Of a DNA stretch of 64,000 nt, positions 2,577 to 54,931 are shown piece after piece (positions within the stretch are counted from its first letter, which is position 1; each line of letters opens with the position of its first letter). The stretch comes from Pectobacterium aroidearum. GTDB lineage: Bacteria > Pseudomonadota > Gammaproteobacteria > Enterobacterales > Enterobacteriaceae. The stretch is from assembly GCF_041228105.1 (NCBI RefSeq), contig NZ_CP166097.1, forward strand, positions 2,542,001 to 2,606,000, read 5' to 3'. The position numbers and the translations under genes are program-made. The notes beneath the pieces were generated by a model. The model saw only the letters and a program-made list of their open reading frames with translations. It was not told where the DNA came from and ran no database searches.

Positions 2577-2695
<119 letters not shown>

Positions 2696-2830
2696 GACTG
2701 GCAGCAGGGTGATGAGCGCAGAAGCGAGGCTAGCGGGTAAAGGAAGAGGCTATTCACGACGATCGTTATCACATAAGTAAAATATTCATAACAAATCTAT
2801 TGAAATTGAATCCACATATAAACACTATCA

Positions 2831-2913: not shown

Positions 2914-3018
2914 CTGAATAATAAATGTGCGTGCATCAGGTAATGTCCCCGTTTCGAACGCGTTAAGCCGTTTGTTGATTCAGGGAGAGCGTGCGCGATT
3001 ACGAGAGATTGTCTATCC

Positions 3019-4479: not shown

Positions 4480-4506
4480 ATGAAGCACTAATACGAAGGA
4501 GAATAG

Positions 4507-5940
<1,434 letters not shown>

Positions 5941-5971
5941 ATGAAGTAGTCTCGTTTAGCTATTCTTGTTA

Positions 5972-6007
5972 TAGCCCTCTAACGGTAACGTTTGGGGGCT
6001 ATTTTTT
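5972..6007 (+). terminator. rho-independent terminator of ascFB
   Basis: TAGCCCTCTAACG pairs with CGTTTGGGGGCTA around a GTAA loop (one bulge or mismatch near the centre), followed by six T residues. Confidence 0.85.
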
Positions 6008-6182
6008 ACCCAGACATTTTTTGCCCAGATACAGGGAATATGAATTGTAGTCTTTTGCTTGATTTTGCATGTTTAGTAATATTAATTATGATAATGTCTC
6101 ATAATCGAGCAATAGTGAGCATTGTGGTTTATTATCAATGTCCAATAATACCGTCATATAAACGCGCAGGAAGGTAAACACC

Positions 6183-6983
6183 ATGAGTCAGTTGCTTCCC
6201 GATATTGCCTTCTTTCATGAACTCGCCAGGCTGGCCAGTCAGGAAACGTTACCGCGTTTTCGTTCTCTTACCGCCAATCAAATTGAAACCAAGCCAAAAG
6301 AGGGTTTTCGTTTTGATCCGGTGACGGAAGCCGATCGGGAAGCTGAGCGGGTCATCCGTGAGCACATCACGCGCCATTATCCCGAACACGCGATCATGGG
6401 GGAAGAATTTGGCCTGAGTGGGGAAGGCCCAGTGCGTTGGGTTTTGGATCCGGTTGATGGCACCCGACCTTTCTTGTGTGGGCTACCCGTGTGGGGAACG
6501 CTTATCGGTCTGCTGCACCATGAACGTGCCGTAATGGGGATGATGAGCCAGCCGTTTACCGGAGAGTGTTTCTGGGCTGATGGTTCACAGGCCTGGCGTA
6601 GCGACCGCAATGGGGAAGTGCGTTTAAGCACGCGCAAAGGTGTGTCGCTCGAACAGGCGATTTTGCACACAACTGCGCCAGAAGCGCTGAGCATGCACCC
6701 GACCGTTCGCTTTACTGCACTCACCGAATGCACGTTGATGACGCGCTATGGCGGAGAATGTTACGCCATGGCGATGCTGGCGGCAGGCCAGATTGACATC
6801 TGCGTGGAATTTGCATTGCAGCCCTACGACATTGTCGCGTTGATCCCGATTATTGAACAGGCGGGCGGTATCATCACCGATCTCAACGGGCAGCGAGCGG
6901 AGGCGGGTGGCACGGTAGTTGCGACTGGTAACCCAGCGCTGCATCAGCAGGTTTTAGCCATTCTGAACGGAACGCGGTCATAG
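6183..6983 (+). CDS. inositol-monophosphatase-family phosphatase, HisN-like
   Basis: The protein is 266 residues, the usual size for IMPase/HisN enzymes. Metal-site motifs are visible: EE in IMGEEFG, DPVDGT (followed by RPF, the HisN-type variant), and YDIVALIPIIEQAGG near the C-terminus. It is a Mg-dependent monophosphatase, probably acting on histidinol phosphate or a similar small sugar or polyol phosphate in the cytosol. It stands alone, with an AGGAAG-type ribosome site before 6183 and an AT-rich promoter region upstream. No histidine gene is nearby, so the substrate is uncertain. Confidence 0.8.
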   Translation: MSQLLPDIAFFHELARLASQETLPRFRSLTANQIETKPKEGFRFDPVTEADREAERVIREHITRHYPEHAIMGEEFGLSGEGPVRWVLDPVDGTRPFLCGLPVWGTLIGLLHHERAVMGMMSQPFTGECFWADGSQAWRSDRNGEVRLSTRKGVSLEQAILHTTAPEALSMHPTVRFTALTECTLMTRYGGECYAMAMLAAGQIDICVEFALQPYDIVALIPIIEQAGGIITDLNGQRAEAGGTVVATGNPALHQQVLAILNGTRS

Positions 6984-7040
6984 CCGCCGTTTTGTATCAC
7001 TTACCCCGATGATGTGAAAGACAACGCTTAAGAAGGAATC

Positions 7041-7430
7041 ATGATGAAAGTGGCACACGTTGCGTTATGGACGGCCGACTTGGCCGCGCAGGCAGCATTT
7101 TGGCAGGAATTTTTCGCCGCTCAGGTCGGAGAAAAATATGTGAGCCGGAATCGTCCTGGGTTTGAATCGCATTTCGTTCAACTGAGTGAAGGGGCATCGA
7201 TTGAGTTGATGACGCTGCCGGTGTTGGCGGAAGCGTTAACCAATAAAGAAAGCTGCGGCTGGGCGCACGTGGCGATTTCTGTCGGAAGCAAGGCGGATGT
7301 CGAGGCATTAGCCAGCAAAGCGGCGGAGCGCGGCATTTTGGTTGCCCCACCGCGCATGACGGGAGACGGTTTTTATGAGGCAATCGTCAGCGATCCTGAT
7401 GGTAATCTAATCGAGATAACCTCAGACTGA
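7041..7430 (+). CDS. VOC (glyoxalase/dioxygenase fold) protein
   Basis: 129 residues with the paired beta-alpha-beta-beta-beta fold of the vicinal oxygen chelate family. It starts KVAHVALWTADL and ends SDPDGNLIEIT. Metal ligands of the family are plausible at H6 and the C-terminal E. The start follows AAGAAGGA at good spacing. It is close to the lactoylglutathione-lyase-like and fosfomycin-resistance-like branch, but substrate cannot be read. It lies 17 bp before the next gene and may be co-transcribed with it. Confidence 0.75.
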   Translation: MMKVAHVALWTADLAAQAAFWQEFFAAQVGEKYVSRNRPGFESHFVQLSEGASIELMTLPVLAEALTNKESCGWAHVAISVGSKADVEALASKAAERGILVAPPRMTGDGFYEAIVSDPDGNLIEITSD

Positions 7431-7446
7431 TCCGGAACCCTTCCGT

Positions 7447-7863
7447 ATGCTGCACAAACTGTCCTCATTCGATCAACAACATACCGCGATGCTGATTTAC
7501 GTCGGTGAAATTCGGTTTGGTCCGCCTTATTTTTCACTCTCGATTGACGGTAACGCTCTGGAAGGGCGCGTTTTTGGCAAGGAACTACTGTGGTCGCCGG
7601 ATTCACGCTATCTGGCAGTGCAAGAGTGGCTCTCCACGGCGGAACGCGATGGCCCGCAAACGGCTTTACTCTGTATTGATGTGATCGAAGAAAGGCAGTG
7701 CCAGATTTCTCAGGCGGCGGGAGGATTTATCGTCCCCATACGTTTCGAGGACGATACGTTGATCTATGAAAAACAGTATTTTGGTGCAGAAAGGAACGGT
7801 ACCACAGAATACGAGATCCCATTTACCGCGCTTTCGCGCTGGAGTGCGCTGCGGTTGGGGTGA
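7447..7863 (+). CDS. hypothetical protein, 138 aa
   Basis: I do not recognise the family. The product is soluble and rich in beta-strand-like sequence (LLWSPDSRYLAVQEW recalls a WD/Tol-type propeller blade, without a full repeat). The last ~50 codons are duplicated at 9495-9655, downstream of the zinc chaperone gene. That shows this is the intact copy and that the intervening gene sits in a duplicated segment. Confidence 0.6.
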   Translation: MLHKLSSFDQQHTAMLIYVGEIRFGPPYFSLSIDGNALEGRVFGKELLWSPDSRYLAVQEWLSTAERDGPQTALLCIDVIEERQCQISQAAGGFIVPIRFEDDTLIYEKQYFGAERNGTTEYEIPFTALSRWSALRLG

Positions 7864-7867
7864 ACTC

Positions 7868-8054
7868 TCAATCTTCCCACTGGAATAGCTCATCGAACTG
7901 TGTGACGTCACGATCGGTGAGCATCGTCGGCACGTGAGTGTCGGTGGGCAGCAACGCTGTCAACTGCTCCTTATAAGCGCAAACAAGCCCCCCTTCTCTA
8001 GTTCTGACTGAACCTGCTGGCTCAATGCAATAACAGCGGGTGTCTCCAGCCTAT
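7868..8054 (-). pseudogene. 3' fragment of the 203-aa gene found at 9660-10271
   Basis: On the minus strand this reads the last ~60 codons of the neighbour at 9660, ending QFDELFQWED-stop against QFDALFHWED-stop. The copy has one base fewer in the run GAAGGGGGGC than GAAGCGTGGGC in the intact gene, so the frame is broken. The similarity stops sharply near 8054. It is half of the direct duplication described in the findings. Confidence 0.8.
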
Positions 8055-8104
8055 TTCTTAATATGATTAAACAAAATCAAACGCTCAATGATTTTTCATG
8101 TCTT

Positions 8105-8130
8105 ATTTGTTATGTTATAACATAACAAAT
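8105..8130. promoter_or_regulatory. Zur-like operator upstream of the CobW-type gene
   Basis: This is a perfect 26-bp palindrome with half-site ATTTGTTATGTTA. It matches the Gram-negative Zur-box pattern (TGTTATATTATAACA-like core). It lies 117 bp before the zinc chaperone start, so the gene is probably induced on zinc starvation. Confidence 0.85.
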
Positions 8131-8247
8131 CAAGCGCGGGTGATTATCGCGGCGAGTGTTTAAAAGCGAAATATTCATGGTGCTGAATCATCCCGCAGCG
8201 AAAAAGTAAAACTGCAAACGACTTTAAATCATCAGAGAGTGTGAAAT

Positions 8248-9471
8248 ATGGCTGACGTAGTAGCTCGACAGAGCGCAGATGCAAGATTACCTGTGACCGT
8301 ACTATCTGGCTTTCTCGGTGCGGGAAAGACCACGTTACTTAACCATATTCTGAATAATCGCGCTGGTCTCCGCGTCGCGGTGATCGTCAACGACATGTCA
8401 GAAGTGAATATTGATGCTGCACTGGTGAGGGAGGGTGGCGCTGAACTTTCACGGACGGACGAAAAGTTGGTGGAGATGAGTAACGGCTGTATCTGCTGCA
8501 CGTTGCGTGAAGATCTACTGATCGAGGTTAATCGGCTGGCGAAAGAAGGGCGTTTTGATCAGTTGGTCATTGAATCAACCGGTATCGCGGAGCCGCTTCC
8601 TGTCGCAGAAACGTTCACGTTTGCGGGTGATGATGGAGAAAGCCTTTCTGAAGTGGCGCGGCTGGATACGATGGTGACCGTTGTTGACGGATATAATTTT
8701 TTAAAAGATTACGCTTCAGTGGACAGTATCCGCTCTCGTGGAGAATCGTTAGGAGAGGGTGATGAGCGCAGCGTGGTGGATCTGCTGATCGATCAGATCG
8801 AGTTCTGCAATGTGGTTATTCTCAACAAAATCGACCTTATTGATGTGGCGCAACAGCAGAAGCTGGTTGCGATTATCCGTTCACTGAATCCAGGTGCGAA
8901 AATACTTCATGCACAATTCGGAGCTGTGCCGTTGAACGAGGTGCTCAACACAGGATTATTTGATTTTGACAAAGCGGCGCAGGCCCCCGGATGGTTGAAA
9001 GAATTACGCGGTGAACATACGCCTGAAACTGAGGAGTATGGCATCGCCAGTTTTGTTTTTCGCGCGCGTCGACCATTTCATCCTGCCCGCTTCGCGCAGG
9101 TCATGGAAAATTCGCTCACCGGGGTTGTCAGATCCAAAGGCTATTTTTGGTTAGCAAGCCGCCCGGAATATGCCGGCTCGTGGTCTCAGGCAGGCGGCGT
9201 GGCGCGTCAGGGGCTGGCTGGTTCATGGTGGGTCAGCGTGCCAAAAGCAAAGTGGCCGACAGATAGTGAATCGCTCAATTACATTCGTTCCATATGGGTG
9301 GATGGCGTGGGTGATGCGCGGCAGGAACTGGTGTTTATCGGTATCGATATGGATGAACTCACGTTGCGAGCCCGTCTGGAAACCGCGCTGCTGACGGACA
9401 AAGAAATGGCAGAAGGTCTGGCGGTGTGGTTAGATTATCCGGACCCGATAGAGCCCTGGTTTGCGTCATAA
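8248..9471 (+). CDS. CobW/COG0523 GTPase, ZigA-type zinc metallochaperone
   Basis: The 407-residue G3E GTPase has Walker A in [16 protein letters not shown] (residues ~19-34), the metal-binding CXCC signature in [11 protein letters not shown], switch and Walker B in ESTGIAEP, and NKID as base specificity. A CobW C-terminal domain occupies the last ~120 residues. It hydrolyses GTP to deliver zinc to client enzymes when zinc is scarce. The ZigA subgroup is supported by the length, the N-terminal [12 protein letters not shown] and the Zur-like palindrome upstream. It is bounded by duplicated fragments of its neighbours. Confidence 0.88.
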
Positions 9472-9494
9472 AGCGTGGGGAATCTAGAAAAGAT

Positions 9495-9655
9495 CTGATT
9501 TTTCAGATGGTGGGGGATTTATCGTCCCCGTGCGTTTCGAGGACGATAAATTGATCTATGAAAAACAGTATTTTGGTGCAGAAAGACGCAGTATTACCGA
9601 ATACGAGGCTTCGTTTACCGCGCTTCCTCGCTGGAGTGCGCTGAGGCTGGGTTAA
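9495..9655 (+). pseudogene. 3' fragment of the 138-aa gene at 7447-7863
   Basis: This reads GGFIVPVRFEDDKLIYEKQYF through to RWSALRLG-stop, matching the end of the 138-aa protein. It has a one-base deletion near its left edge and no start. It is the right-hand copy of the direct duplication around the zinc chaperone gene. Confidence 0.8.
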
Positions 9656-42122: not shown

Positions 42123-42914
42123 ATGGAGGTTGCATTGATCGTTCCTCTTCAAAAAAAAACCGAGGCTGGAAAGCCGTACACACGCATACCTATAAATGAA
42201 TCCAGATTATCGGAACTTAGTATTCTTACTGACAGAGATCTGGTAGCTCTGTGTAAGCAGAGTAGGACACATTCTCAATACATACCCAGCGAATGTCTTC
42301 TTTATTTCGTTCGACGAAGCGTATCAACTAACCCATCTCTTTTTGAACAGCTCTTCAGGGTTCTGTCGGAACGAGTGCTTAGGACGCTTCCTAGAGCCGA
42401 AAGTCTAGGCAGAAATACTATATCAATGACGAATAGCGACATTCGAGAGGGGGTGTTTGACCGCTTCGTTGAGATGCTTATGCTTGACAAAGCAGGCTAC
42501 GAGGAGCGGTTGGACATGTTCGAAATACGTTTTGATCTGGCTTTGTTGAGTTTAAAAAACGACGCTCTAAAGAGGTCTTATCGATCCGAGAACAGAAATA
42601 CTGATTTGGGGTTTGACGATGATTCGGCAGACATTGCACCAGAGGTTGAGGCTGCGTTAGAAGGTTATGATCCTTTTGAAAAAACAGCATTCGATAATTA
42701 TCGTTACCGTTGTAATCTAGATGCGGCGATTGAGTCTCTACCCGAACTGCAGCAGAGAATCATTGAGATGACCCGGTTAGATATTCCAATAGACTCGACG
42801 GACCCGAATGAGATAACCATTTCTAAGGCACTCGATAAGGCTGAAAAGACTATTCGTAATCATAAAAAGAAGGCACTCTCACATCTTCGTATATTACTTC
42901 AAGGGGGAATATGA
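42123..42914 (+). CDS. sigma-70-like protein (region 4-type HTH), first gene of the ubiquitin-like/helicase run
   Basis: 263 residues. The C-terminal ~60 residues have a sigma region 4-like HTH: ESLPELQQRIIEMTRLDIPI followed by ISKALDKAEKTIRNHKKKAL. The N-terminal part is helical without a clear region 2 promoter-melting signature. An ATG at 42123 overlaps GGAGG at 42126-42130, so a TTG at 42135 with a 4-nt gap is also possible. It overlaps the next gene by 4 bp (ATGA), so it is co-translated. Such small sigma-like genes are found with ImmA/IrrE-UvrD fusions in defence islands; whether this one initiates transcription or only binds DNA is unknown. Confidence 0.7.
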   Translation: MEVALIVPLQKKTEAGKPYTRIPINESRLSELSILTDRDLVALCKQSRTHSQYIPSECLLYFVRRSVSTNPSLFEQLFRVLSERVLRTLPRAESLGRNTISMTNSDIREGVFDRFVEMLMLDKAGYEERLDMFEIRFDLALLSLKNDALKRSYRSENRNTDLGFDDDSADIAPEVEAALEGYDPFEKTAFDNYRYRCNLDAAIESLPELQQRIIEMTRLDIPIDSTDPNEITISKALDKAEKTIRNHKKKALSHLRILLQGGI

Positions 42915-43492
42915 TGACGGGACTTTCACCTCAGGCATCCCTGGAAGAGGTACTGGAGTCATTTTCGATAGAGCATGACGTGGGTAAAGCCACTCTGCAA
43001 AAGTACCTTCTGGCCTATCCAGCATTTTCCTCTGATATTATTGATCTATCTCGCGAAATGTCCAGAACATTAACCGAGGATGAAACCCCGCTCTCAGAGT
43101 CTGATCGACGTTTAATCAACTCGGCCGTCACACGCATTCAAATTGCACCGGGAAAAACGATTGCAGATCCATTCGCTGATCTGTCGGTTCAAAAAATGCG
43201 CGATATCTCAAAAGATCTGAACCTGCCTCGACAGGTGATCATGGCATTTAAGGAGCGAAACGTAGTTGCCGAATCCGTTCCCCAGCGACTTCTGATTAGG
43301 TTTGCTGAATTGCTGCAGACCAGCGTGCAGCAACTCTTTGCCTCACTTGAACAGCCAGCCATGGCGGTCTCAGGAAGTTATAAGTCCGACTTTAAACCGG
43401 GTGATGTAGAGAAGATTACTTTCGAACAACTCCTCCGAGATGCTGATTTGTCTGAGGAAGAAATCACGATCTTAATGGACGGGGACATCTAA
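42911..43492 (+). CDS. 193-aa HTH/anti-sigma-like protein
   Basis: A helical protein. The segment DLSVQKMRDISKDLNLPRQV resembles a DNA-binding helix-turn-helix, followed by FAELLQTSVQQLFASL. The C-terminus FEQLLRDADLSEEEITILMD is acidic. It overlaps the sigma-like gene by 4 bp at its start and ends 1 bp before the helicase gene. This tight coupling suggests a regulator or antitoxin-like partner of its neighbours. Not firmly assigned to a family. Confidence 0.55.
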   Translation: MMTGLSPQASLEEVLESFSIEHDVGKATLQKYLLAYPAFSSDIIDLSREMSRTLTEDETPLSESDRRLINSAVTRIQIAPGKTIADPFADLSVQKMRDISKDLNLPRQVIMAFKERNVVAESVPQRLLIRFAELLQTSVQQLFASLEQPAMAVSGSYKSDFKPGDVEKITFEQLLRDADLSEEEITILMDGDI

Positions 43493-43493
43493 C

Positions 43494-46400
43494 GTGCAAG
43501 CAGTGGAATTGGCCCGTAAGGCCGCTGCTGCCCTACATGACCAGGCTGTTGCTGCTGGACATGACCCGTGGACCTCCTACGAATTTGCTGTTGCTGAGGC
43601 AAAGAGGCGGGGCTTTGACGTAGAGAGCACAAATAAAGGCTCACCTAGTCTGAGAGGCGCGCGAGCACGTTTTTTCCCAAATGAGAAGTTCATTCTCCAC
43701 GAAAAATGCACAACCCTTTTTGAACAAGCGTTCCTAGTTGCCCATGAAATTGGTCACGCTGAACTTGGCGACGGCATTGAAGAGGATGACCAAGGCTATA
43801 TTATAGACCCAACAAGAACCTCAGAAGCTTCTCCGATGGGAGTTGAGCGGGTTGTAGACTATAGTCGCAGGCAGCGTCGAGAGGTCCAAATGGATCTATT
43901 TGCTCGTGAGTTTCTGCTTCCCCGGCATGTAGTAAAAGCGCTTTATCTGGATGGGATGAGTGCGTTAAGTATTGCAGAGAAGCTTGGTGCTCCATTCGAT
44001 GTGGTTGCTCAACAGATCTTTGATGCATTGTTACTACCCCCACCTTTACCTGAAGATATAGAGCCCGCGATTGAATACCCATTGAACGCAGAGCAGGATA
44101 AAGCCGCCGCCCATCGAGGCCCGGCCTTTCTGCTTGAGGCCGGGCCTGGTACGGGCAAGACTCAGACTCTAGTGGGACGGGTAAAAGGATTGCTTTCCGA
44201 TGGCGTAGATCCACGAAAAATTCTTTTGCTGACGTTCTCTAACAAAGCTGCGGGAGAAATGGCTGAAAGGATCGCTCGCGTTGACACGCAAGCTGCAGCT
44301 GCAATGTGGATTGGCACTTTCCACTCATTCGGCCTCGATCTGATTCGTCGATTTCACGACGAACTGAATTTGCCGCTCGACCCTCGACTGCTGGACCGGA
44401 CGGAAGCAGTAGAACTGCTGGAACATGAGTTTCCTGTATTAGATCTGGTTCATTATCGCAATCTTTACGATCCAACCCGGATGATTGCTGACATCCTCAC
44501 CGGCATCTCTCGTGCCAAGGACGAGGTAGTCGATGCAAATACCTACCTCGCGTTGGCACAGGCCATGCGCGATAGAGCTGTTGGTATTGAAGATATAGCA
44601 ACGGCAGAAAAAGCCATTGAAGTCGCCAAAGTATACGCCACTTACGAAACCATCAAAAAGCAGGCTCGATGCATTGACTTTGGGGACTTGGTTTCATTGC
44701 CAGTGACGCTTCTTGAAGAAAATGAAGCCATTCGATCTCACATCCAATCCACTTATGAGCACGTTCTAGTCGATGAATATCAGGATGTGAACCATAGTAG
44801 CGTACGACTGCTAAAAGCCCTTTGTGGCGATGGCGAAAACTTGTGGGTGGTTGGAGACGCTAAGCAGTCAATCTATCGCTTCAGAGGCGCTTCGTCGTTC
44901 AACATGACTCGTTTTGGGAATGAGGATTTCCCCGGCGGGTTGCGATATCGTTTAAAAACGAACTACCGGTCCGTACCCGAAATAGTGTCGGCATTTTCAA
45001 ATTTTGCGCTGAATATGGCTGTAGGGGATGCTGACAGTGGTTTAAACGCAGAACGGACAAGTGATGCCCAGAAACCTGAGCTGCGTTGCGTAGATCAAGG
45101 ATTTCTTCAAGCGCCCTCTATTGCGGACGCGATAAAGGAGATGCAGAACTCCGGTTACAAATACAGTGATCAGGCAATCCTGTGCACAGGCAATGAGAAG
45201 CTTTCAGAAATCGGGCAACAACTCGAGCTCTTAGGCATCCCTGTACTTTACTTGGGTAGTGTATTTGAGCGCCCCGAGATTAAGGATTGGCTGACACTGC
45301 TCTCCCTCTTAGTAGATCGTCGTGCAATGGGCTTGGTGCGAATAGCTTGCCTGCCTGAGTTTACGATGTCACTGGATGATGTTGGCAGTATCCTTACACA
45401 TCTGCGTGAAGATGAAACCGGAAGTGATTGGAAAACCAAAATCGATGACTTTCAGATCTCAGACAATGGGCGCACAGCCTTAAATCAGCTTGTTAAAACA
45501 CTTAGCGGTTTTAGTGCAAATGACTCCCCCTGGAGCGTGCTGGCAACTGTACTTTTAGACAGGACACGAATCACGGCCCGTATGGCAACATCAACAGACT
45601 GCAGTGTCCGCTCCCAATGTATCGCAACTTGGCAGTTGCTCAATTTTTTACGAGCACAACCCCTTAGCGGGGAAGGGGTATTTATCACTCGCACATTAGA
45701 TCGCATCCGCCGTTTGGTTCGGCTAGGGGATGATCGCGATCTTCGGCAGCTTCCGACGGCAGCACAAAGCATTGATGCAGTGCGTCTCATGACCATTCAT
45801 GGGGCAAAGGGACTCGAATTCCCCGTGATTCACTTACCCGGCATGAACGCAGATACTTTACCAGGTAATCCGCAGAAGCAGGTTTGCCCACCACCCAATG
45901 GCATGATTGCAGGGGGTGGGTCCAACGCCAAGGAGCAATTTAATCTGGAGTATAAGGCGGAGAGAGAATGCTTATTCTACGTTGCCTTGTCCAGAGCTGA
46001 AGATCGGCTATTTCTCTATGCTACTACGCGGAATGCTGCTGGCAGCACCCGAAAGTTATCTGACTTTTTAAACCGTATAGGGTCCAGCTTAGTTCAAAAT
46101 AACGTAAAGCCTCTACATGCGGTAATCGAAAAGCCCGAGTCATTACCTGTGGATTGGGTTATCAGCGGAGACCTAGTTCTAAGTGGTGCTCAGATTTCCC
46201 TGTATGAGTCCTGCCCTCGCCGTTTCTTCTATACGCACATTCTCCAAATTGGAGGACGGCGTACTCCAACGCCATTCCTAAAGATGCACGATGCTGTTCG
46301 CAATGTATTCCAGGAGTTGGCCAACACTGTGCCCGTACAAATAACGGACATAGAAGATAGGGTCACGCAGGCATTTGCTGTCGAAGGCCTAGCTGAACAC

Positions 46401-46883
46401 GGTTACGCTCCTGAATTTAAGTCACTAGCTATTGGTATGGTTAGTTATTTCGCTTCGATTAGGGAAGGCCACAACTCTGAAGCAACTTGTGCCTTTACAA
46501 TGAAGCTTGGGGAAACGTCTATCACCGTACAGCCTGACGATGTATTGGTTCATCCAGATGGACGCAAAACATTTCGCCGGGTTAGAACAGGACATAAAAG
46601 AGATAAAGAAGAATCTGACTTAGGCGCGGCGGCCTTTGTACTCGCAGCACGACAGGCTTTTCCAGATGCAATAGTGGAGTTAGTACACCTTTCTGACCAA
46701 ACTGTGACCCCAATCGTCCTGTCCGCTAAGCAGTTGGATAATAGGCATAAAAAAATCCTTAACACCCTTGACTCAATAGTTAAAGGAGCCTTTCCAGCAG
46801 AGCCATCATCTCGAGTATGTCCCTCCTGTCCGGCATTTTTCGTCTGCGGATTGACTCCTTCAGGCGTGCTAAAAAAAATCTAA
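43494..46883 (+). CDS. ImmA/IrrE metallopeptidase - UvrD helicase - degenerate PD-(D/E)XK/Fe-S nuclease fusion
   Basis: 1129 residues from GTG 43494. The N-terminal ~190 residues are ImmA/IrrE-like, with zinc motif HEIGH (H84, E85, H88) and a third-ligand region FAREFLLP. Then SF1A/UvrD helicase motifs: Walker A AGPGTGKTQT (K222), DEYQD (D427), GDAKQSIYRF, YRLKTNYRS, MTIHGAKGLEFP and FYVALSRAEDR. The C-terminal ~250 residues are an AddB/Cas4-type nuclease with the four Fe-S cysteines (C907; C1109, C1112, C1118). The usual IVDYKTG strand reads FRRVRTG, so cleavage may be lost. It lies 2 bp after the 193-aa gene. Protease and helicase together recall SOS-like or phage-triggered regulators of defence islands. 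Confidence 0.88.
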   Translation: MQAVELARKAAAALHDQAVAAGHDPWTSYEFAVAEAKRRGFDVESTNKGSPSLRGARARFFPNEKFILHEKCTTLFEQAFLVAHEIGHAELGDGIEEDDQGYIIDPTRTSEASPMGVERVVDYSRRQRREVQMDLFAREFLLPRHVVKALYLDGMSALSIAEKLGAPFDVVAQQIFDALLLPPPLPEDIEPAIEYPLNAEQDKAAAHRGPAFLLEAGPGTGKTQTLVGRVKGLLSDGVDPRKILLLTFSNKAAGEMAERIARVDTQAAAAMWIGTFHSFGLDLIRRFHDELNLPLDPRLLDRTEAVELLEHEFPVLDLVHYRNLYDPTRMIADILTGISRAKDEVVDANTYLALAQAMRDRAVGIEDIATAEKAIEVAKVYATYETIKKQARCIDFGDLVSLPVTLLEENEAIRSHIQSTYEHVLVDEYQDVNHSSVRLLKALCGDGENLWVVGDAKQSIYRFRGASSFNMTRFGNEDFPGGLRYRLKTNYRSVPEIVSAFSNFALNMAVGDADSGLNAERTSDAQKPELRCVDQGFLQAPSIADAIKEMQNSGYKYSDQAILCTGNEKLSEIGQQLELLGIPVLYLGSVFERPEIKDWLTLLSLLVDRRAMGLVRIACLPEFTMSLDDVGSILTHLREDETGSDWKTKIDDFQISDNGRTALNQLVKTLSGFSANDSPWSVLATVLLDRTRITARMATSTDCSVRSQCIATWQLLNFLRAQPLSGEGVFITRTLDRIRRLVRLGDDRDLRQLPTAAQSIDAVRLMTIHGAKGLEFPVIHLPGMNADTLPGNPQKQVCPPPNGMIAGGGSNAKEQFNLEYKAERECLFYVALSRAEDRLFLYATTRNAAGSTRKLSDFLNRIGSSLVQNNVKPLHAVIEKPESLPVDWVISGDLVLSGAQISLYESCPRRFFYTHILQIGGRRTPTPFLKMHDAVRNVFQELANTVPVQITDIEDRVTQAFAVEGLAEHGYAPEFKSLAIGMVSYFASIREGHNSEATCAFTMKLGETSITVQPDDVLVHPDGRKTFRRVRTGHKRDKEESDLGAAAFVLAARQAFPDAIVELVHLSDQTVTPIVLSAKQLDNRHKKILNTLDSIVKGAFPAEPSSRVCPSCPAFFVCGLTPSGVLKKI

Positions 46884-46967
46884 AAAAAATTTACCGGTTT
46901 GATTGACCTGCATCGATTGAGTAGTAGAGCCAGACATCGTCTGGCCAAACTCAAAAGGTGATGCAAA

Positions 46968-47723
46968 ATGAATACTGAAAATATAAACGATATTGACGAT
47001 GTAGGAGAGGCAATTCGCGAAGGCCGCGATCTGCGTTCGGCACGCGCATTCCGAATCCTCTTCGCACAGGAAAACCTGGATTTTCGCGCAATCGAAGTCA
47101 ATGATCCTGTACCACTGGGTCGTCAGATCCTGATTGCTGCTGGCCTACGTGCAAATGATGATTATAGCCTGTTTGCTATTCTTGAAACGGGGGATTTCGA
47201 AGACTTGCGCCTTGATGAACCCTTCGATTTACGCGGTCGAGGCGCAGAGCGCTTTGTAGCCTTCCAGACCGATCGCGATTTCAAACTGACTATCAATGAG
47301 AGCCAAGTATCATGGGGTAAGCCCGCAATTTCAGGTTCCGCGTTATACGACCTGGCGAAACCCAGTGACGGAGATGCCGTTTTCATGGTTATTCGTGGTG
47401 GAAACGATCGTCAGATTGAACTGAACGAAGCCGTAGATCTTACCGCCCCGGGGGTTGAGCACTTCATCACTGCACCAAAGCGCAAACCGAAAATTGACAT
47501 CGTAGTCAATGGTCGCGAAGTCCAGGTATGTGATAGTCACCAAACATTCGATCAGTTAGTCGCTATCGCTTACCCGGGGGAAGCTCCAACACCTGAGATC
47601 GTGTACTCAATTACGTATCGCGGGGTGAGCTCAAAACCACACAGTGGTGAATTGGCTACTGGTGCCTTTGTTGAAGTAAAGAATGGGAGCGTGATCAATG
47701 TCAGCCGCACCATTCAGTCTTAA
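46968..47723 (+). CDS. three-repeat ubiquitin-like protein (multiubiquitin family)
   Basis: 251 residues with three Ubl-type repeats at about 25-101, 102-171 and 173-251 (RAFRILFAQE..., RDFKLTINES..., KIDIVVNGRE...). The third has the multiubiquitin signature TFDQLVAIAYPGEAPTPEIVY. The C-terminus is VINVSRTIQS, with no di-Gly, so conjugation would need another mode or be absent. It is the probable substrate of the E1-like enzyme that follows. It overlaps the E1 gene by 26 bp. An 84-bp gap separates it from the helicase gene, so a promoter may start here. Members of the same gene set were predicted as bacterial ubiquitin-like systems by comparative genomics. Confidence 0.85.
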   Translation: MNTENINDIDDVGEAIREGRDLRSARAFRILFAQENLDFRAIEVNDPVPLGRQILIAAGLRANDDYSLFAILETGDFEDLRLDEPFDLRGRGAERFVAFQTDRDFKLTINESQVSWGKPAISGSALYDLAKPSDGDAVFMVIRGGNDRQIELNEAVDLTAPGVEHFITAPKRKPKIDIVVNGREVQVCDSHQTFDQLVAIAYPGEAPTPEIVYSITYRGVSSKPHSGELATGAFVEVKNGSVINVSRTIQS

Positions 47724-48873
47724 TAGTGATCTTAAGCGCTTGCGCGAGGAAGGGTACTACGTACAAATCGTAGGGGGTTTCTTGGTTATGCGTGAAGTGC
47801 CGTACGTTAACGCACAGTTGGAGGTTAAGACTGGCACGCTCATATCGAGCCTTTGCATGTCTGGAAACGTTACGCAAAAGCCCGAGCCGCACACGATTCA
47901 CTTCGATGGAGATTTTCCGTGCACAGCCCAAGGTGCACCCATCCAGGCTATTGCTAATCAGAGCTTAGCGGTGAATCTGGGACATGGGCTGAGTGCTCAG
48001 CACATGTTCTCCAGCAAACCTGGGCCAGAGGGTTACCGCGATTACCACCAGAAGATGACTACGTATGCGACAATCATTTCTGGCCACGCGGCTACCCTCA
48101 AACCTGGCGTTACTCCGCGAGTATTTAAAAATCCCGACGATGAAGAGGGCTGCGTATTCAACTATCTGGAAACTGCATCGGACCGAGTAGGCATTGGTGC
48201 GTTGACCGCACGGCTTGAAGGTCAGCGCATCGCTATCCTCGGTGTTGGTGGCACCGGTTCCTATGTTCTGGACCAGGTGGCGAAAACACCAGTGAGCGAG
48301 ATACGTCTAATTGACGGTGATGATTTTCTTCAACATAACGCTTTCCGCGCCCCAGGAGCACCTTCAATCGACATTCTCCGCGAGGTACCTAAGAAAGTAG
48401 ATTACTTGGCAGGCATCTACGGTAAGATGCACCGTCATATCGTGCCTCATGCAGTGCAAATCGACGCTGGTAATCTCAACCTTCTGGACGGAATCACCTT
48501 CGCCTTCCTTTGCATGGACTCTGGTGAGTCGAAGCGCTTGGTGGTACAGAAGCTAGAAGATATGGGAGTGTCCTTTGTGGATGTGGGAATGGGCCTCGAA
48601 CTAGTAAACGGTTCGCTTGGTGGCATCCTTCGTGTGACGGTTAGTACCCCAAACAAGCGTGATCACATTCGTAAGCGAGTGTCTTTCGAAGGGGGGGGCG
48701 CAGAAAATATTTATGCATCAAATATCCAAGTCGCTGAATTAAATATGATGAATGCGGCACTTGCCGTAATTAAATGGAAGAAACTCCTTGGTTTTTATCG
48801 TGACCTTGAAAATGAGCACCACTGTTCCTATACGACTGACGGAAATATGCTGCTGAATGGTGATTCGCTATGA
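47698..48873 (+). CDS. E1-like (ThiF-fold) activating enzyme with DUF6791-type N-terminal domain
   Basis: 391 residues. The N-terminal ~165 residues read like the DUF6791 domain that precedes many ThiF proteins (EVPYVNAQLEVKTGTL and SKPGPEGYRDYHQKMTTY). The C-terminal ThiF adenylation domain has the glycine-rich AILGVGGTGSYVLDQ (residues 179-193), the acidic LIDGDDFLQHNAFR with the adenylation Arg, and SGESKR after MD. A UBA3/MoeB-like catalytic Cys is not obvious; HHCSY near the C-terminus is one candidate. It should adenylate the Ubl C-terminus. It starts inside the Ubl gene and overlaps the next gene by 4 bp. Confidence 0.85.
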   Translation: MSAAPFSLNSDLKRLREEGYYVQIVGGFLVMREVPYVNAQLEVKTGTLISSLCMSGNVTQKPEPHTIHFDGDFPCTAQGAPIQAIANQSLAVNLGHGLSAQHMFSSKPGPEGYRDYHQKMTTYATIISGHAATLKPGVTPRVFKNPDDEEGCVFNYLETASDRVGIGALTARLEGQRIAILGVGGTGSYVLDQVAKTPVSEIRLIDGDDFLQHNAFRAPGAPSIDILREVPKKVDYLAGIYGKMHRHIVPHAVQIDAGNLNLLDGITFAFLCMDSGESKRLVVQKLEDMGVSFVDVGMGLELVNGSLGGILRVTVSTPNKRDHIRKRVSFEGGGAENIYASNIQVAELNMMNAALAVIKWKKLLGFYRDLENEHHCSYTTDGNMLLNGDSL

Positions 48874-49328
48874 TACGTCATAACCAGCTTACTCCTCGCT
48901 TCGTAAAGGGGATTCCGCGTGAACTTGAACCTGGTATTTTGTATGTTTCAATGGAGTACGGCACCGTGGTCCATAGTTGTTGTTGCGGCTGTGGCCTTGA
49001 AGTAGTGACACCACTGACTCCAACAGACTGGAAACTAACCTTTGACGGCGAGACAATTTCGCTTTGGCCATCGGTCGGCAATTGGAATTTGCCCTGTCGA
49101 TCTCACTATGTTATTCAAGGTAACAGGGTGATAGCCGCTGGGCCTTGGGACAAAGCTAAGATCGAGGCGGAGAAGCGTCGCGACAAGGCAGCTAAGGCGC
49201 GTTACTACTCACAAACTGAACCGACCACAGATCCTGGAGAGTTGAAGACAGATTCTACTAAGGAGTCTGCGGGGACGAAGGGCAAGCCGACCACCATTTG
49301 GGCCAAGTTACGGCGGTGGTTGGGTTAG
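48870..49328 (+). CDS. DUF6527-type zinc-binding protein
   Basis: 152 residues. The core is SCCCGCGLEVVTPLTPTDWK followed by ISLWPSVGNWNLPCRSHYVI, with clustered cysteines that should bind zinc; this is the signature I know for DUF6527. The C-terminal ~45 residues are Lys-rich and probably disordered. In predicted bacterial Ubl systems it accompanies the E1-like gene and may act as a ligase- or adaptor-like partner. That role is inferred. The start overlaps the E1 stop (ATGA). Confidence 0.85.
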   Translation: MIRHNQLTPRFVKGIPRELEPGILYVSMEYGTVVHSCCCGCGLEVVTPLTPTDWKLTFDGETISLWPSVGNWNLPCRSHYVIQGNRVIAAGPWDKAKIEAEKRRDKAAKARYYSQTEPTTDPGELKTDSTKESAGTKGKPTTIWAKLRRWLG

Positions 49329-49746: not shown

Positions 49747-50961
49747 TTATCCTGCAGCCTGTGCCAGAAGCCATCGTTTCCGGTCGATGCCGTGCAGCCT
49801 TTCTGCCACTAATTCGGTCGCATGCCTACCAGCCTCTGCGCCGCTGAAGCGCAGCCGGTTACCGCACAGAATGCATTTGTAGGGATCTGTGCGCAGAAAT
49901 TCCTTCATCAGCGCGGCGAAGCCCGGCTGCTCTGGTTTTTCCCGCGCTTCCATCTGCAGGGCGTCATACACCTTCGGCAGCAGCTCGCCCCGTTTCCGGT
50001 TGGACAAAAAGCCGTAGTAGCGCACCATTTTAAAATGCTTCGCCGGCACGTGGCTGATGTAGCGCCTGAGCATCTCTTCCTGGGTCAGCGTCTGTTTCCG
50101 GTGCTGCTGCGTGCGGTGATCGTAATAGTGGTGCACCACGGCGCCGCCGCTGTAGTGTCTCAGCTTCGCCGCCGATACCGGTGGCCGCTTCAGATACCGC
50201 CCGAGATATTTGACGCTCCGCCAGGCACCCCGGGTCTTTTTCGCGAAGTGGACCTTCCAGTAGCGCCCGTACTGCGCATCCAGATAGCGGCGCCACTGTT
50301 TTTCATCCCGGAGGTGACCATAGCCGGGCAGGCTGGCGGGGTTGATCTGGTCATAACTTTCCCGCAGCAGGCGGATGACGGCACCGCGCCAGATCTCCTC
50401 CACGGCATGCTTTTTAAAGAAGAGGTCTCGCCAGACGCCGTGTTTTACATCAAGTCCGCCGCGTGTGACGGAGACATGAATGTGCGGATGCTGGTTGAGC
50501 TGGCGGCCGTAGGTATGCAGGGCGCAGAAGATGCCGACTTCCACGCCCTGCTTACGTGCCCAGCGGAGCATGGCCCGGGTGGCGGCCTGAAAAAGCTGGT
50601 TGAGCAGGGGCCAGTGGTTGTTAAAAAACGGCCATAGCAGATGGGGCATGGTAAAGGTAATGTGCTGCCAGTCGCAGTCGGGGAGGATGTGGCTCTGCTG
50701 CGACACCCACTGCTCCGTGGCTTTGAAGCCGCAGGAGCTGCAGGCCTTTGACTTGCAGCTCTGGCAGAAAAAGCGGGAGTGGGTGCAGTCTGCCGATGCG
50801 CAGCAGTAGCGGCGAACGCCCATGGCGGCGGTGCCGCAGGCGAGCATGCGCTCTACGCAGAGTCGGGTCCAGGGCGTTATGCTGTCGCCATTCGAACCGA
50901 GATACCTGTTCCAGCCGTCATCGACGGTGAAGAGCAGTTTGGCAGGGCGGGGAATATACAT
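49747..50961 (-). CDS. IS91-family transposase (Y2 HUH-like)
   Basis: 404 residues. N-terminal zinc-finger cysteines (RRYCCASADCTHSRFFCQSC) are followed by HPHIHVSVTRGG (HUH metal site near residue 160) and GRYLKRPPV with a candidate Tyr. It is the normal size for this family. It nicks and rolling-circle-transposes with no target duplication, moving neighbouring DNA. A remnant of the same gene start lies at 52810-53016, so the DNA between is bounded by two IS91-like ends. Confidence 0.9.
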   Translation of the reverse strand: MYIPRPAKLLFTVDDGWNRYLGSNGDSITPWTRLCVERMLACGTAAMGVRRYCCASADCTHSRFFCQSCKSKACSSCGFKATEQWVSQQSHILPDCDWQHITFTMPHLLWPFFNNHWPLLNQLFQAATRAMLRWARKQGVEVGIFCALHTYGRQLNQHPHIHVSVTRGGLDVKHGVWRDLFFKKHAVEEIWRGAVIRLLRESYDQINPASLPGYGHLRDEKQWRRYLDAQYGRYWKVHFAKKTRGAWRSVKYLGRYLKRPPVSAAKLRHYSGGAVVHHYYDHRTQQHRKQTLTQEEMLRRYISHVPAKHFKMVRYYGFLSNRKRGELLPKVYDALQMEAREKPEQPGFAALMKEFLRTDPYKCILCGNRLRFSGAEAGRHATELVAERLHGIDRKRWLLAQAAG

Positions 50962-51068: not shown

Positions 51069-52673
51069 TTATGGCCTGTAGCTGTCAAAAAATTCTTCTT
51101 GTTTTTCGACTATAAACTTTGCAACAGCAGCGTCAAGTAAGCTTGAGTCGTCATAAGATCTGTAAATTCTCAATAACGTTGTTTTTATGGATACTTTCTC
51201 TTTATCTTTGAACCTTTGATCGTAAGCGTAAAGTAAAAGATCATATATATTATAATCGTGCGACTGAGTCAAAATTGCTAAAAGCAACTCAAAGGTATGA
51301 ATGCCAAGAGAATAAAAGCTTCTACTACTATCTACACTATTAAAAATCATTCTAGGCGTTATGTAAGACAGCGGGATTTCATTCATTGTTATGATGGCAA
51401 ACATATAGGCATTGCCTTGTGTTATTTTAGGATGACGCTTTTGCTTTACTATCTTGCCTATAGATTTATAAACTTGCTCCCACGGTGTAAATAATAGTTT
51501 ATCTAAACTTTTCTCTATAGCTTCAGTTTGATTATCACCAGTAAGTATTACATCTAAATATCTTGCCGATTTCACCTCAAGGGCAAGAAGCGTTTTATTC
51601 TTAGGACACAGGATCATTGCATCCGGTGATTTTGATTTAGATTTACCATACGAAAACTCAGGAATGTATTCATACCGACCATCCCCTTTTATAGCGCAGG
51701 CATCTCTACATAATCCCTGAACGTAATGTTCAAAATCAGCCCCGAAGTCCTTCATGAACCCTTCGTTTTTCCCTGAGTGAAGATGAACCTTATGAAAGAG
51801 ATTATCGAAAACCAGTTCTTCAACAAGGCGCCCTTCAACGGGTAAATATTCTGTTGGCGAAAGCCTCAGAAAAGGTTTATTTCTGAAAAGACTATAGTCA
51901 TTCAGGTTATTGAGAGTGGAGACAGAAAATTCAGCCCCTTCCCGAAGGTCGAAGGATACCGACTCCATGATGGATGTCAGTAAACTAAGCTCAACGCCCG
52001 TGTCATGACTGAACTGGTGCAGATCTATAACCCACTCTGAAAATTCCAGTACCCTGAAGTCTTCGGAGTTACGCATCATCCGGATCCGAAGAACTATAGC
52101 GAAAATTACATTAACGTAAGCTTCTACAGAAAAACCGGTGTCTCTTTCATACGCACTGACATAACTGGCGATATTCTTCCCACTGCAAAATATCTTATGC
52201 GCCCGATACAATTTAAACTTGAAATCATCTCTGGCGGTTTGAATGGCATTCTTTACAAAGTAAGTTCCAGTATCCTCATGAACGTCGTAATCATTTATAT
52301 GCGTTAATAACTGATGCAGGACATTTAATGAATCGCTGGCACTCATGCTATTTCCAGCCCACCTGTCAGGATTTTCACTGGAGAGAATCAGCTTCCAGCA
52401 TTCAAGCGCCTGAATCCTGCCATATATAAAACCATTGCTGAAATCACCTCTCTTCCCCGATAAATTCCCTAAGAAAAAGCGCCTGAACTTTTTTTCCTCA
52501 TTGCTCAAAAATGACAATATTGAAAGCTGTGAAAGAGTTTCTTTACTGACCTTATTCTTGAGTATTTCATCTGCAGAACCGGGCTTACCGTAATATTCTT
52601 TATGCGATAAAAGAATATTCTTATTCGCAAACTCATCAGCACTGTCGTTTTTGCACTCGTTACTTTCTGACAT
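51069..52673 (-). CDS. PD-(D/E)XK nuclease-like protein, possible IS91 cargo
   Basis: 534 residues from ATG 52673 (GGAG five bases upstream; a longer start at 52700 is possible). A restriction-endonuclease-like core is visible: SPDAMILCPKNKTLLALEVK (D and E-X-K spacing). The rest is helical and AT-rich compared with its neighbours. It lies between the complete IS91-type gene (left) and the IS91 remnant (right), so it may be a passenger mobilised by them. Function could be defence or island maintenance; not shown. Confidence 0.55.
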   Translation of the reverse strand: MSESNECKNDSADEFANKNILLSHKEYYGKPGSADEILKNKVSKETLSQLSILSFLSNEEKKFRRFFLGNLSGKRGDFSNGFIYGRIQALECWKLILSSENPDRWAGNSMSASDSLNVLHQLLTHINDYDVHEDTGTYFVKNAIQTARDDFKFKLYRAHKIFCSGKNIASYVSAYERDTGFSVEAYVNVIFAIVLRIRMMRNSEDFRVLEFSEWVIDLHQFSHDTGVELSLLTSIMESVSFDLREGAEFSVSTLNNLNDYSLFRNKPFLRLSPTEYLPVEGRLVEELVFDNLFHKVHLHSGKNEGFMKDFGADFEHYVQGLCRDACAIKGDGRYEYIPEFSYGKSKSKSPDAMILCPKNKTLLALEVKSARYLDVILTGDNQTEAIEKSLDKLLFTPWEQVYKSIGKIVKQKRHPKITQGNAYMFAIITMNEIPLSYITPRMIFNSVDSSRSFYSLGIHTFELLLAILTQSHDYNIYDLLLYAYDQRFKDKEKVSIKTTLLRIYRSYDDSSLLDAAVAKFIVEKQEEFFDSYRP

Positions 52674-52809
52674 AAAAACTCCATTTTTACCTGCATTCAT
52701 TGATAAACCCTGTGGCCTGCTTTATCTGTTAAACCCACCGAGATGATTAATAACACTGTTTCCAGCCTCCCGCCGAAACTTTTTGGGTATGGAGCGGGCC
52801 AGCCACTTC

Positions 52810-53098
52810 TTAATCCCGTCCGCCGAATGCGTCAGCGCGCCGTCGGCCGGCGACTGTCATCGGACTCCTGCAGAACGTAGCGCCCCTACCGCAGGCGAGC
52901 ATGTGCTCGACACAGAGGCGGGTCCAGGGAGTGACGTTGTCGCGGAACCTGACGAGGAACAGGTTCCAGGCGTCATCGACGGTGAAGAGCAACTTTGTGG
53001 GACGCGGAATATACATGCCGCAGAGTATAAAACGGAGCTCAGGGCATGAACACCATCGGAACGGCAGAGCCGTGACGCTCGCCCTGCAAGGGCGCTAC
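52810..53098 (-). mobile_element. IS91-like element remnant
   Basis: The reading from 53016 leftward (MYIPRPTKLLFTVDDAWNLF, then ITPWTRLC-like and ending CGR near 52,857) matches the first ~45 residues of the intact transposase at 50961, then decays. The DNA to its right up to about 53098 also resembles the sequence flanking that copy (GTGACGCTCG). It joins the truncated fic gene at a GAAC. Confidence 0.75.
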
Positions 53099-53675
53099 GT
53101 TCATAATCCATTGCCATACCAGCATGGATAGCAGCAATATACTCCGTCTTATTCTGCTCCCAGCTTTGGTAATCTAAGGGCTTGTATCCCCCCTGAACCG
53201 CCATCACATCGGCTAAAAGTCGTGATAAGCGACCGTTCCCCTCTCTGAAGGGATGAATGAGGATCAGCTCTACGTGGATTATGGCAATCGCTTCGATGAG
53301 CTGTTCTCTGCTCATGCTGGCACAGGGCGTATAACGGGCCAGATATTGGGTGTCAAATTCGTGCAGTAATTTTGGCAATTGTGCCGACGGGGCGAACATA
53401 AAGCCGCCTTTGCTGATATTTACCGTCCTTTCATGTCCCGCCCATTCGTAGATGTTGCCTAACCAACGGCGATGCCAGCCTTTCAACGTATTGACGGTAA
53501 TCTGCTCCAGAGGAAACTGCTCTTCAAAAACAGAATGATAAAGTTGTTCCAGAAGTACCAGTTCAGCGCCGTTAATCTCATCAGGATCGGAGATGCCCAA
53601 TTTATTGGCTAAAACCTGTTCACTAGAGTCTTTCTCATATTGGCCTTCACTACTGGAAACATGGTATCGGCTCAT
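53099..53675 (-). pseudogene. fic gene, 3' end removed by an IS91-like end
   Basis: Fic domain protein from ATG 53675 (MSRYHVSSS). The AMPylation core HPFREGNGRLSRLL is intact, and KGGFMFAPS is the flap. The natural reading continues to GMAMDYE and then crosses GAAC (53099-53102) into IS91-like sequence, so the native C-terminus is lost, though an ORF runs on to 52857 with foreign residues. No inhibitory (S/T)XXXE(G/N) motif is visible. It might still be a partial toxin. Confidence 0.75.
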
Positions 53676-53749
53676 GTAAAAACCCTGAATTGGTGGGATA
53701 GGAGGAATAGAAAAATTATAACGCCGAGTCAGTACCCGCGCTTCTGAAA

Positions 53750-54931
53750 TTATACCTCGACAGTGGCCTGAACCCATCTATCAAGCTTATCTGCCCAATC
53801 CTGCATCATCACTTTGCGTTCATCAAGATAAGTCGCGTGGTTATACGTGCGGCGAACATTATTGGTATCAGCATGGGCAAGCTGAGCCTCGATAGCATCA
53901 GGCCGATAGCCCATCTCGTTTAAACGTGTGCTGCCGGTGGTTCGGGTGGCATGCGGGCTATACGTTCCGCTCCAGCCGAGGCTTTTCAGTAGCTGGCGTA
54001 GCGAGTGCGATGTCATCGGACCACGCGGGTTATCTCGGCCCGGAAAAAGGTGCTGTCGATGCCCGGTTAATCCCTGTAGCGTTCTGAGCATGCTGATGGC
54101 TTGTGAGGGAAGGGGAATGACGTGTTCTCTGCGGGCTTTCATTCGCGTTGCCGGAATGGTCCACAGCGCATTATCGAGATCGAACTCTGCCCATTCCGCT
54201 TCGGTAGCTTCGGCAGGGCGCGCCAGCGTCCACCACATGAGCCACATGCAATAGTTAACCTGGTATGAGCCACGACTGTTGTCAAAACAGCTTAATAGTT
54301 TCCCGATTTGCTGTGGGATCAAGGCCTGTTTGTGCTGCGTTTTATTTGCCGGAATCGCCTTACGCACCGGCCATACAGGATCGCTGTCTGCTCTGAGCGT
54401 CGCCACCGCCAGCTCAAAAACCGATGAAATAGTGCGGCGGGCTTCAGCGGCAACGGTCGGAGCGCCGCGCTTAGCCGTTTCCTGAAGAATTTTAAGAATG
54501 TGGTGCGGGGTGATTTCCCTGATAGGAAGTTTGCCGATGGCGGGGAAAACCACACGCTCCAGCATATCGAGGCGGCGCGTTTTGGTGATGTCGGCCCAGT
54601 CTTTCATCTGCAACCACTCTTTGGCGATAAGCTCAAAGGTGTTGGAGGCATCGTTGACCTTGCGGATTTTATCTAGTTGCTTAGCCTGTGCCGGGTTGAC
54701 TCCCTCTGCAACTTGCTTACGTGCTTGCTCGCATTTCTCCCGCGCCTCGGCAAGTTTTACTGCTGGATACTCGCCCAACGCAAACATGCTGGATTTGCCG
54801 TTGAGTTTAAACCGATAGCGCCATGCCTTTTTGCCGTTGGGTTTCACTTCGAGGTAGAGACCGTTGAAGTCATTGAGTCGATAGAGTTTTTCTTTCGGCT
54901 TAGCAGTGCGGCATTGCGTATCAGTGAGCAT
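53750..54931 (-). CDS. P4-type tyrosine integrase of the island
   Basis: 393 residues with the DUF4102 N-terminal arm-binding region (LTDTQCRTAKPKEKLYRLND), a SAM-like core-binding domain and the catalytic domain. Arg in LARPAEATE, HXXR in SPHATRTTG, H in AHADTNN and Tyr in RTYNHATYL are visible. The gene sits 80-100 bp from repeat copy C and reads away from it, the usual position for an integrase next to its att site. It is the likely enzyme for insertion at the ychF 3' end. Three TGTACTCA motifs upstream (54964, 54997, 55008) look like its arm sites. Confidence 0.92.
   Translation of the reverse strand: MLTDTQCRTAKPKEKLYRLNDFNGLYLEVKPNGKKAWRYRFKLNGKSSMFALGEYPAVKLAEAREKCEQARKQVAEGVNPAQAKQLDKIRKVNDASNTFELIAKEWLQMKDWADITKTRRLDMLERVVFPAIGKLPIREITPHHILKILQETAKRGAPTVAAEARRTISSVFELAVATLRADSDPVWPVRKAIPANKTQHKQALIPQQIGKLLSCFDNSRGSYQVNYCMWLMWWTLARPAEATEAEWAEFDLDNALWTIPATRMKARREHVIPLPSQAISMLRTLQGLTGHRQHLFPGRDNPRGPMTSHSLRQLLKSLGWSGTYSPHATRTTGSTRLNEMGYRPDAIEAQLAHADTNNVRRTYNHATYLDERKVMMQDWADKLDRWVQATVEV

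Follow-up and report, generated by a model that had tools for sequence, protein, structure and literature searches.

In the 64,000-nt stretch of the Pectobacterium aroidearum genome analysed here (assembly GCF_041228105.1, contig NZ_CP166097.1, positions 2,542,001-2,606,000; hereafter the window, to whose positions coordinates refer unless another locus is named), six open reading frames lie on the + strand at 42123-49328. These form two blocks: block 1 (g1, g2 and g3), encoding a sigma factor-like protein, a helix-turn-helix (HTH) protein and a fusion of an ImmA-type peptidase with a UvrD helicase, and block 2 (g4, g5 and g6), encoding a triple ubiquitin-like (Ubl) protein, an E1-like protein and a DUF6527 protein. 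An earlier note on this DNA had described six same-strand genes in two blocks split by an 84-bp gap, which the open reading frame calls bear out. The tight spacing it gave inside the blocks holds for g1/g2 (4-bp overlap), g2-g3 (1-bp gap) and g5/g6 (4-bp overlap) but not for g4/g5, whose overlap is 26 bp rather than 4 bp, and likewise 26 bp in 12 of the 12 contig loci with both genes called. New here is a directional bipartite motif, tied to block 1, that lies before the Ubl gene and in or before the sigma gene.

Linkage of the two blocks was assessed in two overlapping samples, a class sample of 369 genomes and a phylum sample of 398 genomes. A Multi_ubiq match was observed in 14 genomes of the class sample, 13 of them above the cut-off, and g2 in two, both within these 14, while g2 was present in 6 of the 398 genomes of the phylum sample. 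Pooling yields seven distinct g2 genomes, and in 7/7 of them g1-g2-g3 are followed directly by a Ubl gene and an E1 gene, with a diverged E1 type in three, a DUF6527 profile match in 5/7 and a weak E1 match (0.004) in L063. Conversely, 12 of the 14 Multi_ubiq genomes of the class sample lack g2; in both samples the presence of block 1 thus entails that of block 2, but not vice versa. Hence, the claim that the blocks belong together, for which a check by co-occurrence had been proposed, is upheld, and the contrary prospect of blocks occurring mostly apart applies to block 2 but not to block 1. That the two blocks form one system is well supported.

The same organization was recovered by other routes. 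A scan for E1 in genome contigs gave 16 loci, ten of which keep the order of the six genes (L002, L003, L005, L006, L007, L009, L011, L012, L015 and L016); in L014 the contig starts inside g3, whose C-terminus is visible, and L004, L008, L010, L013 and the diverged L017 contain block 2 without block 1. Among plasmids, 74 records match g2, and in nine of the ten divergent or unclear ones examined a ubiquitin-like system lies beside it, eight of the Bub (bacterial ubiquitination-like) type and one BilABCD. A multiubiquitin/E1/DUF6527 set adjoins block 1 in L043, L044, L045, L046, L047, L048, L049 and L051, with a separate E2 in L046, a Ubl gene split by the insertion sequence (IS) IS66 in L049 and block 2 on the opposite strand in L051 (Robbsia). 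Nine further records were selected for the known or likely presence of both blocks and hence constitute no test of linkage. Order and orientation are constant in the loci examined except L051 and L100. This gene order is found again in records assigned by name to Pseudomonadota, Planctomycetes, an Acidobacteria bin and, through a cyanobacterial plasmid, Cyanobacteriota, with the phylum presumed for some genera; since it recurs in records named for four phyla, the arrangement goes beyond chance. L007 and L009, closely related members of one 80% cluster, lie in bins named for different phyla, possibly due to a binning error.

The g3-g4 gap contains the bipartite motif T[A/T]CCGG-N16-CGATT (P2), which points at the Ubl gene in every locus counted. 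Using the strict pattern T[AT]CCGG-N14..16-[CG]GAT, it was found in 26/26 gaps first counted, as compared to 0.033 expected from shuffled sequences; this count omits L014, L042, L049, L050 and L051, which have no complete same-strand g3-g4 pair, and a motif match is present in L049 and L050, checked separately. No match, either strict or relaxed (sixth base free), was found in the 400 bp upstream of 14 Ubl loci without block 1, these controls omitting L066, L071 and L076, in which the Ubl profile found no gene. In the nine later loci with ten gaps (two in L100), the strict form occurs in 5/10 (0.014 expected) and the relaxed form in 10/10 (0.05 expected), and the relaxed form is found in 22/22 clusters defined at 80% g3 identity. 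The distance from motif start to Ubl start is 76 nt in the window, 75-80 nt in the eight single-operon later loci, and 69 and 75 nt in L100. The latter locus (Rhizobium beringeri plasmid, 405-9622) has one block 1 between two opposite-strand Ubl operons, one with a JAB gene, and the relaxed motif precedes both. In L050 (Cupriavidus sp. EM10 plasmid p352-2, 8225-13940), g3 is absent and g1-g2 are followed by BilA, BilB, BilC and BilD as identified by PADLOC; here the motif lies before g1 and before bilA, with an opposite-strand gene between g2 and bilA. A scan of the window's own genome gave 27 motif matches versus 18 for the reversed control, hence no clear sign of a wider regulon. Leader stems of differing sequence are predicted within 60 nt after P2 in 23/23 loci folded, with weak z values of -0.4 to -4.5.

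A second copy of the motif (P1) lies within g1, 188-215 bp upstream of g2, where it covers the codons for a YR.....AI stretch, and P1 is present in 21 of the 22 clusters; in L063 and L050 the copy lies before g1 instead of inside it, and L043 has both. P1 as a mere by-product of these conserved residues is countered by a codon count over 27 genes, for which sites carrying another residue were removed (leaving n of 21 to 25) and near-identical loci were retained. Measured against the genes' own usage, CGG is used at 18/25 Arg sites (4.5 expected), GCG at 22/23 (6.8), ATT at 21/24 (9.1) and TAC at 21/21 (13.2), a skewed codon choice that points to a constraint at the DNA level as well, inside coding sequence. 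When P1 and P2 of the same locus are compared, with L050 added and L051 omitted owing to its g1 profile giving no match, base 2 agrees in 21/21 and the five variable -35 positions agree at 78/105, versus 50.2 on permutation, a value reached in 0/20000 permutations. Such matching of variants within a locus has a simple account in one factor reading both copies. In form, the motif resembles extracytoplasmic function (ECF) promoters.

Table 1. Genes, domains and putative regulatory elements of the two-block locus (window positions; ECF, extracytoplasmic function)
Feature	Position	Strand	Basis
g1, predicted sigma-70 family (ECF-like) sigma factor, sigma2 + sigma4	42123..42914	+	
P1, TACCGT-N16-CGATT inside g1, putative sigma-dependent promoter for g2-g3	42705..42731	+	
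g2, 193-aa Xre-like HTH protein, candidate repressor or anti-sigma and candidate ImmA substrate	42911..43492	+	
HTH region of g2	43160..43354	+	VIA-align rows of middling Z
g3, ImmA/IrrE peptidase + UvrD helicase + PDDEXK_1/4-Cys domain	43494..46883	+	Pfam
Peptidase_M78 (ImmA) domain of g3	43605..44018	+	Pfam
PDDEXK_1 domain of g3, catalytic D-x-K lost, four Cys kept	46179..46847	+	Pfam, alignment of relatives
P2, TACCGG-N16-CGATT, putative sigma-dependent promoter of block 2	46892..46918	+	motif in 84-bp gap
Hairpin GCCAGAC-ATC-GTCTGGC in leader after P2	46929..46945	+	folding
g4, triple ubiquitin-like protein (Multi_ubiq x3)	46968..47723	+	Pfam, multi-ubiquitin structure 9cd2 (6.3e-27)
g5, DUF6791 + ThiF (E1), PRK06153 family	47698..48873	+	Pfam, PRK06153
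g6, DUF6527	48870..49328	+	Pfam

The proteins of block 1 are consistent with a controller of transcription. For g1, Pfam gives a sigma-70 region 4 match below the cut-off, and the best Foldseek hit (0.034) falls short of E 0.001; sigma2 and sigma4 domains are seen in the predicted model and in VIA-align rows of middling Z. Judged from this model, g1 looks like a two-domain sigma factor, so that its first description as a sigma-like HTH was apt as to the sigma likeness and too narrow as to the HTH. With g2, Pfam matches are sub-threshold only and Foldseek likewise gave none at E 0.001 or better. Three Pfam domains, Peptidase_M78, UvrD and PDDEXK_1, make up g3, whose HExxH, Walker A and four Cys are kept in 17/17 alignment rows, with Walker B reading DEYQDVN in 16/17 and DEFQDVN in one. 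The PDDEXK_1 fold is retained in 16/16 relatives, but the site matching the catalytic D-x-K (equivalence judged by eye) reads R/K/T/Q-x-R/K/N/Q/M in 16/16, with D or E at the first catalytic site in 0/16. Thus, the protease-helicase-nuclease fusion announced earlier is present in its domains and has lost the catalytic motif of its nuclease. An AddB-like PDDEXK_1 protein in L048 carries LDLK in the segment judged equivalent by eye; hhalign of the g3 nuclease segment against this protein gave no match, and searching PDB with a profile of the g3 C-terminus gave nothing useful. No relative with the sigma profile was found in viral contigs, and no E1 match in phage records.

The composition described for block 2, a triple Ubl, an E1-like protein and DUF6527, is confirmed by Pfam. 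PF14452 (Multi_ubiq) matches g4 in three stretches (1.2e-53), g5 scores 689 bits with PRK06153 (cut-off 601) and g6 scores 82.9 bits with DUF6527 (cut-off 23.6). The best solved relative of g5 is Citrobacter BubCD (profile 8.5e-8), for the E1 domain only (residues 169-300); DUF6791 spans residues 10-159, with H65 invariant and C75 in 14/15 sequence rows, and may represent an E2-like domain. One E. coli record labels a relative of g6 'ubiquitination-like system serine protease', and DUF6527 is presumably part of Bub. Bub operons were reportedly described by the Corbett laboratory (Ye 2026 and Gong 2025, as cited in PMC13373217). By its sequence, block 2 is a Bub-type operon and hence of an already known kind.

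Linkage, the directional motif conserved at P2 and P1 and its matched variants in most loci were computed directly, as were the predicted sigma fold, the retention of the ImmA and helicase motifs and the loss of that of the nuclease. Block 1 is probably a dedicated controller that switches the Bub-type block 2 on via an ImmA-gated sigma factor. In such a programme, g1 would act as an alternative sigma factor, and the motif evidence suggests that it reads P1 and P2, while g2, a candidate inhibitor and ImmA substrate, would keep g1, or the promoters, silent. Upon meeting damaged or single-stranded DNA, g3 would cleave g2 by its ImmA domain, with the fused helicase bringing the protease to the DNA. 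The freed sigma factor would then direct RNA polymerase to P2, driving block 2, and to P1, within g1 or ahead of it, driving g2-g3, and the Ubl, E1 and DUF6527 proteins thus made would conjugate to targets. By analogy with the ImmA, PprI and CapP relatives, infection or DNA damage may be sensed, with single-stranded DNA as the possible signal. The outcome may be defence or stress protection. Of the earlier proposal that block 1 controls or acts with block 2, control gains from the sigma-type motif in the gap, and action as an effector nuclease is disfavoured by loss of the nuclease motif. A separate promoter for block 2, which had been named as refuting a joint system, is indeed predicted in P2, but this promoter looks like the link between the blocks.

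Several observations weigh against this interpretation. The strict pattern was drawn from the same 26 gaps in which it was counted; the L014 gap, outside that count, has the relaxed form only with another sixth base, bringing the strict count to 26/27, and five of the ten later gaps also carry the relaxed form only. Window P1 itself differs at the sixth base from the commonest form, L059 has no P1, and the second Ubl promoter of L100, outside the 21/21 comparison, has TAC at base 2 as against TTC in the other two copies. Relatives are not independent, forming 22 clusters at 80% g3 identity, and the nine later loci fall into five clusters, of which two also contain loci from the earlier set; the agreement of P1 with P2 is partly lineage, the match being inflated by shared ancestry. 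In Robbsia L051 the first gene differs and neither form of the motif precedes the divergent block 2, and in L042 (Polymorphum), cut by IS21 and by the record end, no block 2 is present in the parts seen. The role of g2 as inhibitor and ImmA substrate is a candidate role, and the whole reading is computational, its expression side being predicted.

Foremost among the alternatives, block 1 could itself be an effector, whose UvrD-nuclease attacks phage DNA in the manner of Gabija or RecB, the sigma and HTH proteins then regulating block 1 itself and block 2 serving as a second effector alongside it. The conserved helicase motifs and retained PDDEXK_1 fold of g3 would suit such a role, as would its strong PADLOC matches to GajB and DRT helicases. 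However, the D-x-K motif is gone from every relative aligned, the GajB similarity falls on the UvrD portion, and GajA was not among the matches listed for the ten proteins scanned (the six of the locus and four neighbours; for g3, the best 25 of 55 families). Furthermore, among the loci examined only the IS-broken L042 has block 1 genes without a ubiquitin-like system in the part seen. An effector role of this kind is unlikely.

Less probable still, and in our view doubtful, is that the motif serves as an operator, a repressor site for the HTH of g2, with block 2 read by a housekeeping sigma factor. The presence of an HTH in g2 agrees with such an arrangement, and ImmR works as a repressor in a like manner. 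So does CapH, as cited in the available text of PMC13373217, and DdrO according to that of PMC10904395. Against this, the motif is asymmetric, gene-directed in every locus counted and has a nearly fixed -35/-10-like spacing, with its start at a near-constant distance from the Ubl start; sigma-70 promoters show no excess in the region (10 found versus 10.3 in shuffled sequences), and a conserved sigma factor belongs to the module.

Mere adjacency of the two blocks within mobile defence islands, as the adjoining IS91, Fic and integrase genes, the many plasmid copies and the exchangeability of blocks in L003 might suggest, is rejected as highly improbable on the 7/7 linkage, with the constant order and orientation outside L051 and L100 and the restriction of P2 to loci with block 1 (0/14 controls) also against it.

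Exchange of the blocks is illustrated by L003 (Pseudomonas), in which g4 and g5 are 88-91% identical to those of the window and g6 71%, as compared to 47-60% for block 1 (E1 91%, g3 60%). This mosaic, with its break near the gap, indicates that blocks can be exchanged there. In E. coli, DNA matches to g3-g6 occur in 3 of 5426 genomes, one with all six genes. In the other two, strains STEC383 and ES2 (L040 and L041), g1, g2 and the 5' part of g3 are absent beside IS1, with block 2 and P2 intact. Control by the sigma factor predicts block 2 to be silent in both, which hence constitute a natural test of sigma dependence.

Downstream of the locus in the window lie an IS91-type transposase (49747-50961), a protein whose weak similarity to GapS1, at 42.6 of 320 bits, is far under the cut-off (51069-52700), a Fic protein (52857-53777) and a PRK09692-like tyrosine integrase under the cut-off of that model (53750-54931); these neighbours are a mobile defence-like island. 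Alphaproteobacterial plasmids L042, L096 and L101 carry a UvrD, DUF6088 and AbiEii set directly upstream of g1.

Hundreds of Bub operons are known, whose means of activation and protective role are standing questions. A sigma factor dedicated to Bub operons, if true, would represent a different logic, namely activation by a promoter code; expression of one gene would then provide a direct handle on what the Ubl attaches to, and the motif would also predict regulon membership. A sigma factor tied to a Ubl operon, with its likely promoter before the Ubl gene and inside the sigma gene, would be a new kind of on-switch for possible immune operons. On balance, we lean towards a new controller class for Ubl systems, in which a dedicated sigma factor, gated by an ImmA-helicase sensor, has its own promoter code before each Ubl operon (Bub, once Bil) and inside the sigma gene.

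The sigma module was not found in the literature searched, although primary Bub papers may mention it or count such loci as CapH+CapP. The available text of PMC13373217 (EMBO J 2026) contains no sigma factor controller of Bub operons, that of PMC1779556 does not mention UvrD, sigma or helicase, and those of PMC11354881 and PMC12355090 have nothing on Bub. The window operon shares with Bub the multiubiquitin, E1 and DUF6527 set, with BubCD as nearest solved relative of g5, and differs in being carried with a sigma-HTH-ImmA/UvrD controller. Likeness to BilABCD is confined to L050, where the g1-g2 pair and the motif precede a BilABCD set, but that locus lacks g3 and has an intervening opposite-strand gene, and the window genes are Bub-type, not Bil. 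With Gabija GajB and RecB-AddB, g3 has in common the UvrD-PDDEXK architecture, yet it is without a catalytic nuclease motif and has an added M78 domain. The IrrE/PprI-DdrO and ImmA-ImmR pairs likewise combine an M78 protease with an Xre-type partner, presumably without a sigma factor and without a helicase fusion. PprI, a relative of ImmA, is activated by single-stranded DNA and cleaves the DdrO repressor, according to the available text of PMC10904395.

In L004, L008 and L010 the Ubl operon is preceded by genes for an approximately 365-aa HTH/HATPase protein and an approximately 185-aa MarR-like winged HTH protein, as judged by weak Pfam matches with no STAS match (L008 by sequence likeness only, L013 for the first gene only). 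This pair resembles CapK and CapS, which are found on Bub operons with CapK activated by single-stranded DNA; of 544 Bub operons, 219 have CapW or CapH+CapP and 59 have CapK+CapS (PMC13373217, available text). CapK/CapS-like genes thus occupy the same slot in related Ubl operons (E1 59-74% identical in L004, L008, L010 and L013), with a kinase and a STAS-winged HTH repressor there and a sigma factor, an HTH protein and a protease-helicase here. The diverged Ubl locus of L017 (6380-7459) has an HTH-M78 fusion protein approximately 2 kb upstream instead of block 1. As cited in the available text of PMC13373217, CapP is activated by single-stranded DNA and cleaves CapH, and in the window, as in CapH+CapP, an immune-type operon is preceded by an HTH gene with an ImmA/M78 peptidase next to it. 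However, the M78 domain in the window is part of a fusion with UvrD and a dead nuclease domain rather than one partner of a stand-alone two-gene pair, and a sigma gene is added in front, with positive promoter control proposed rather than repression alone.

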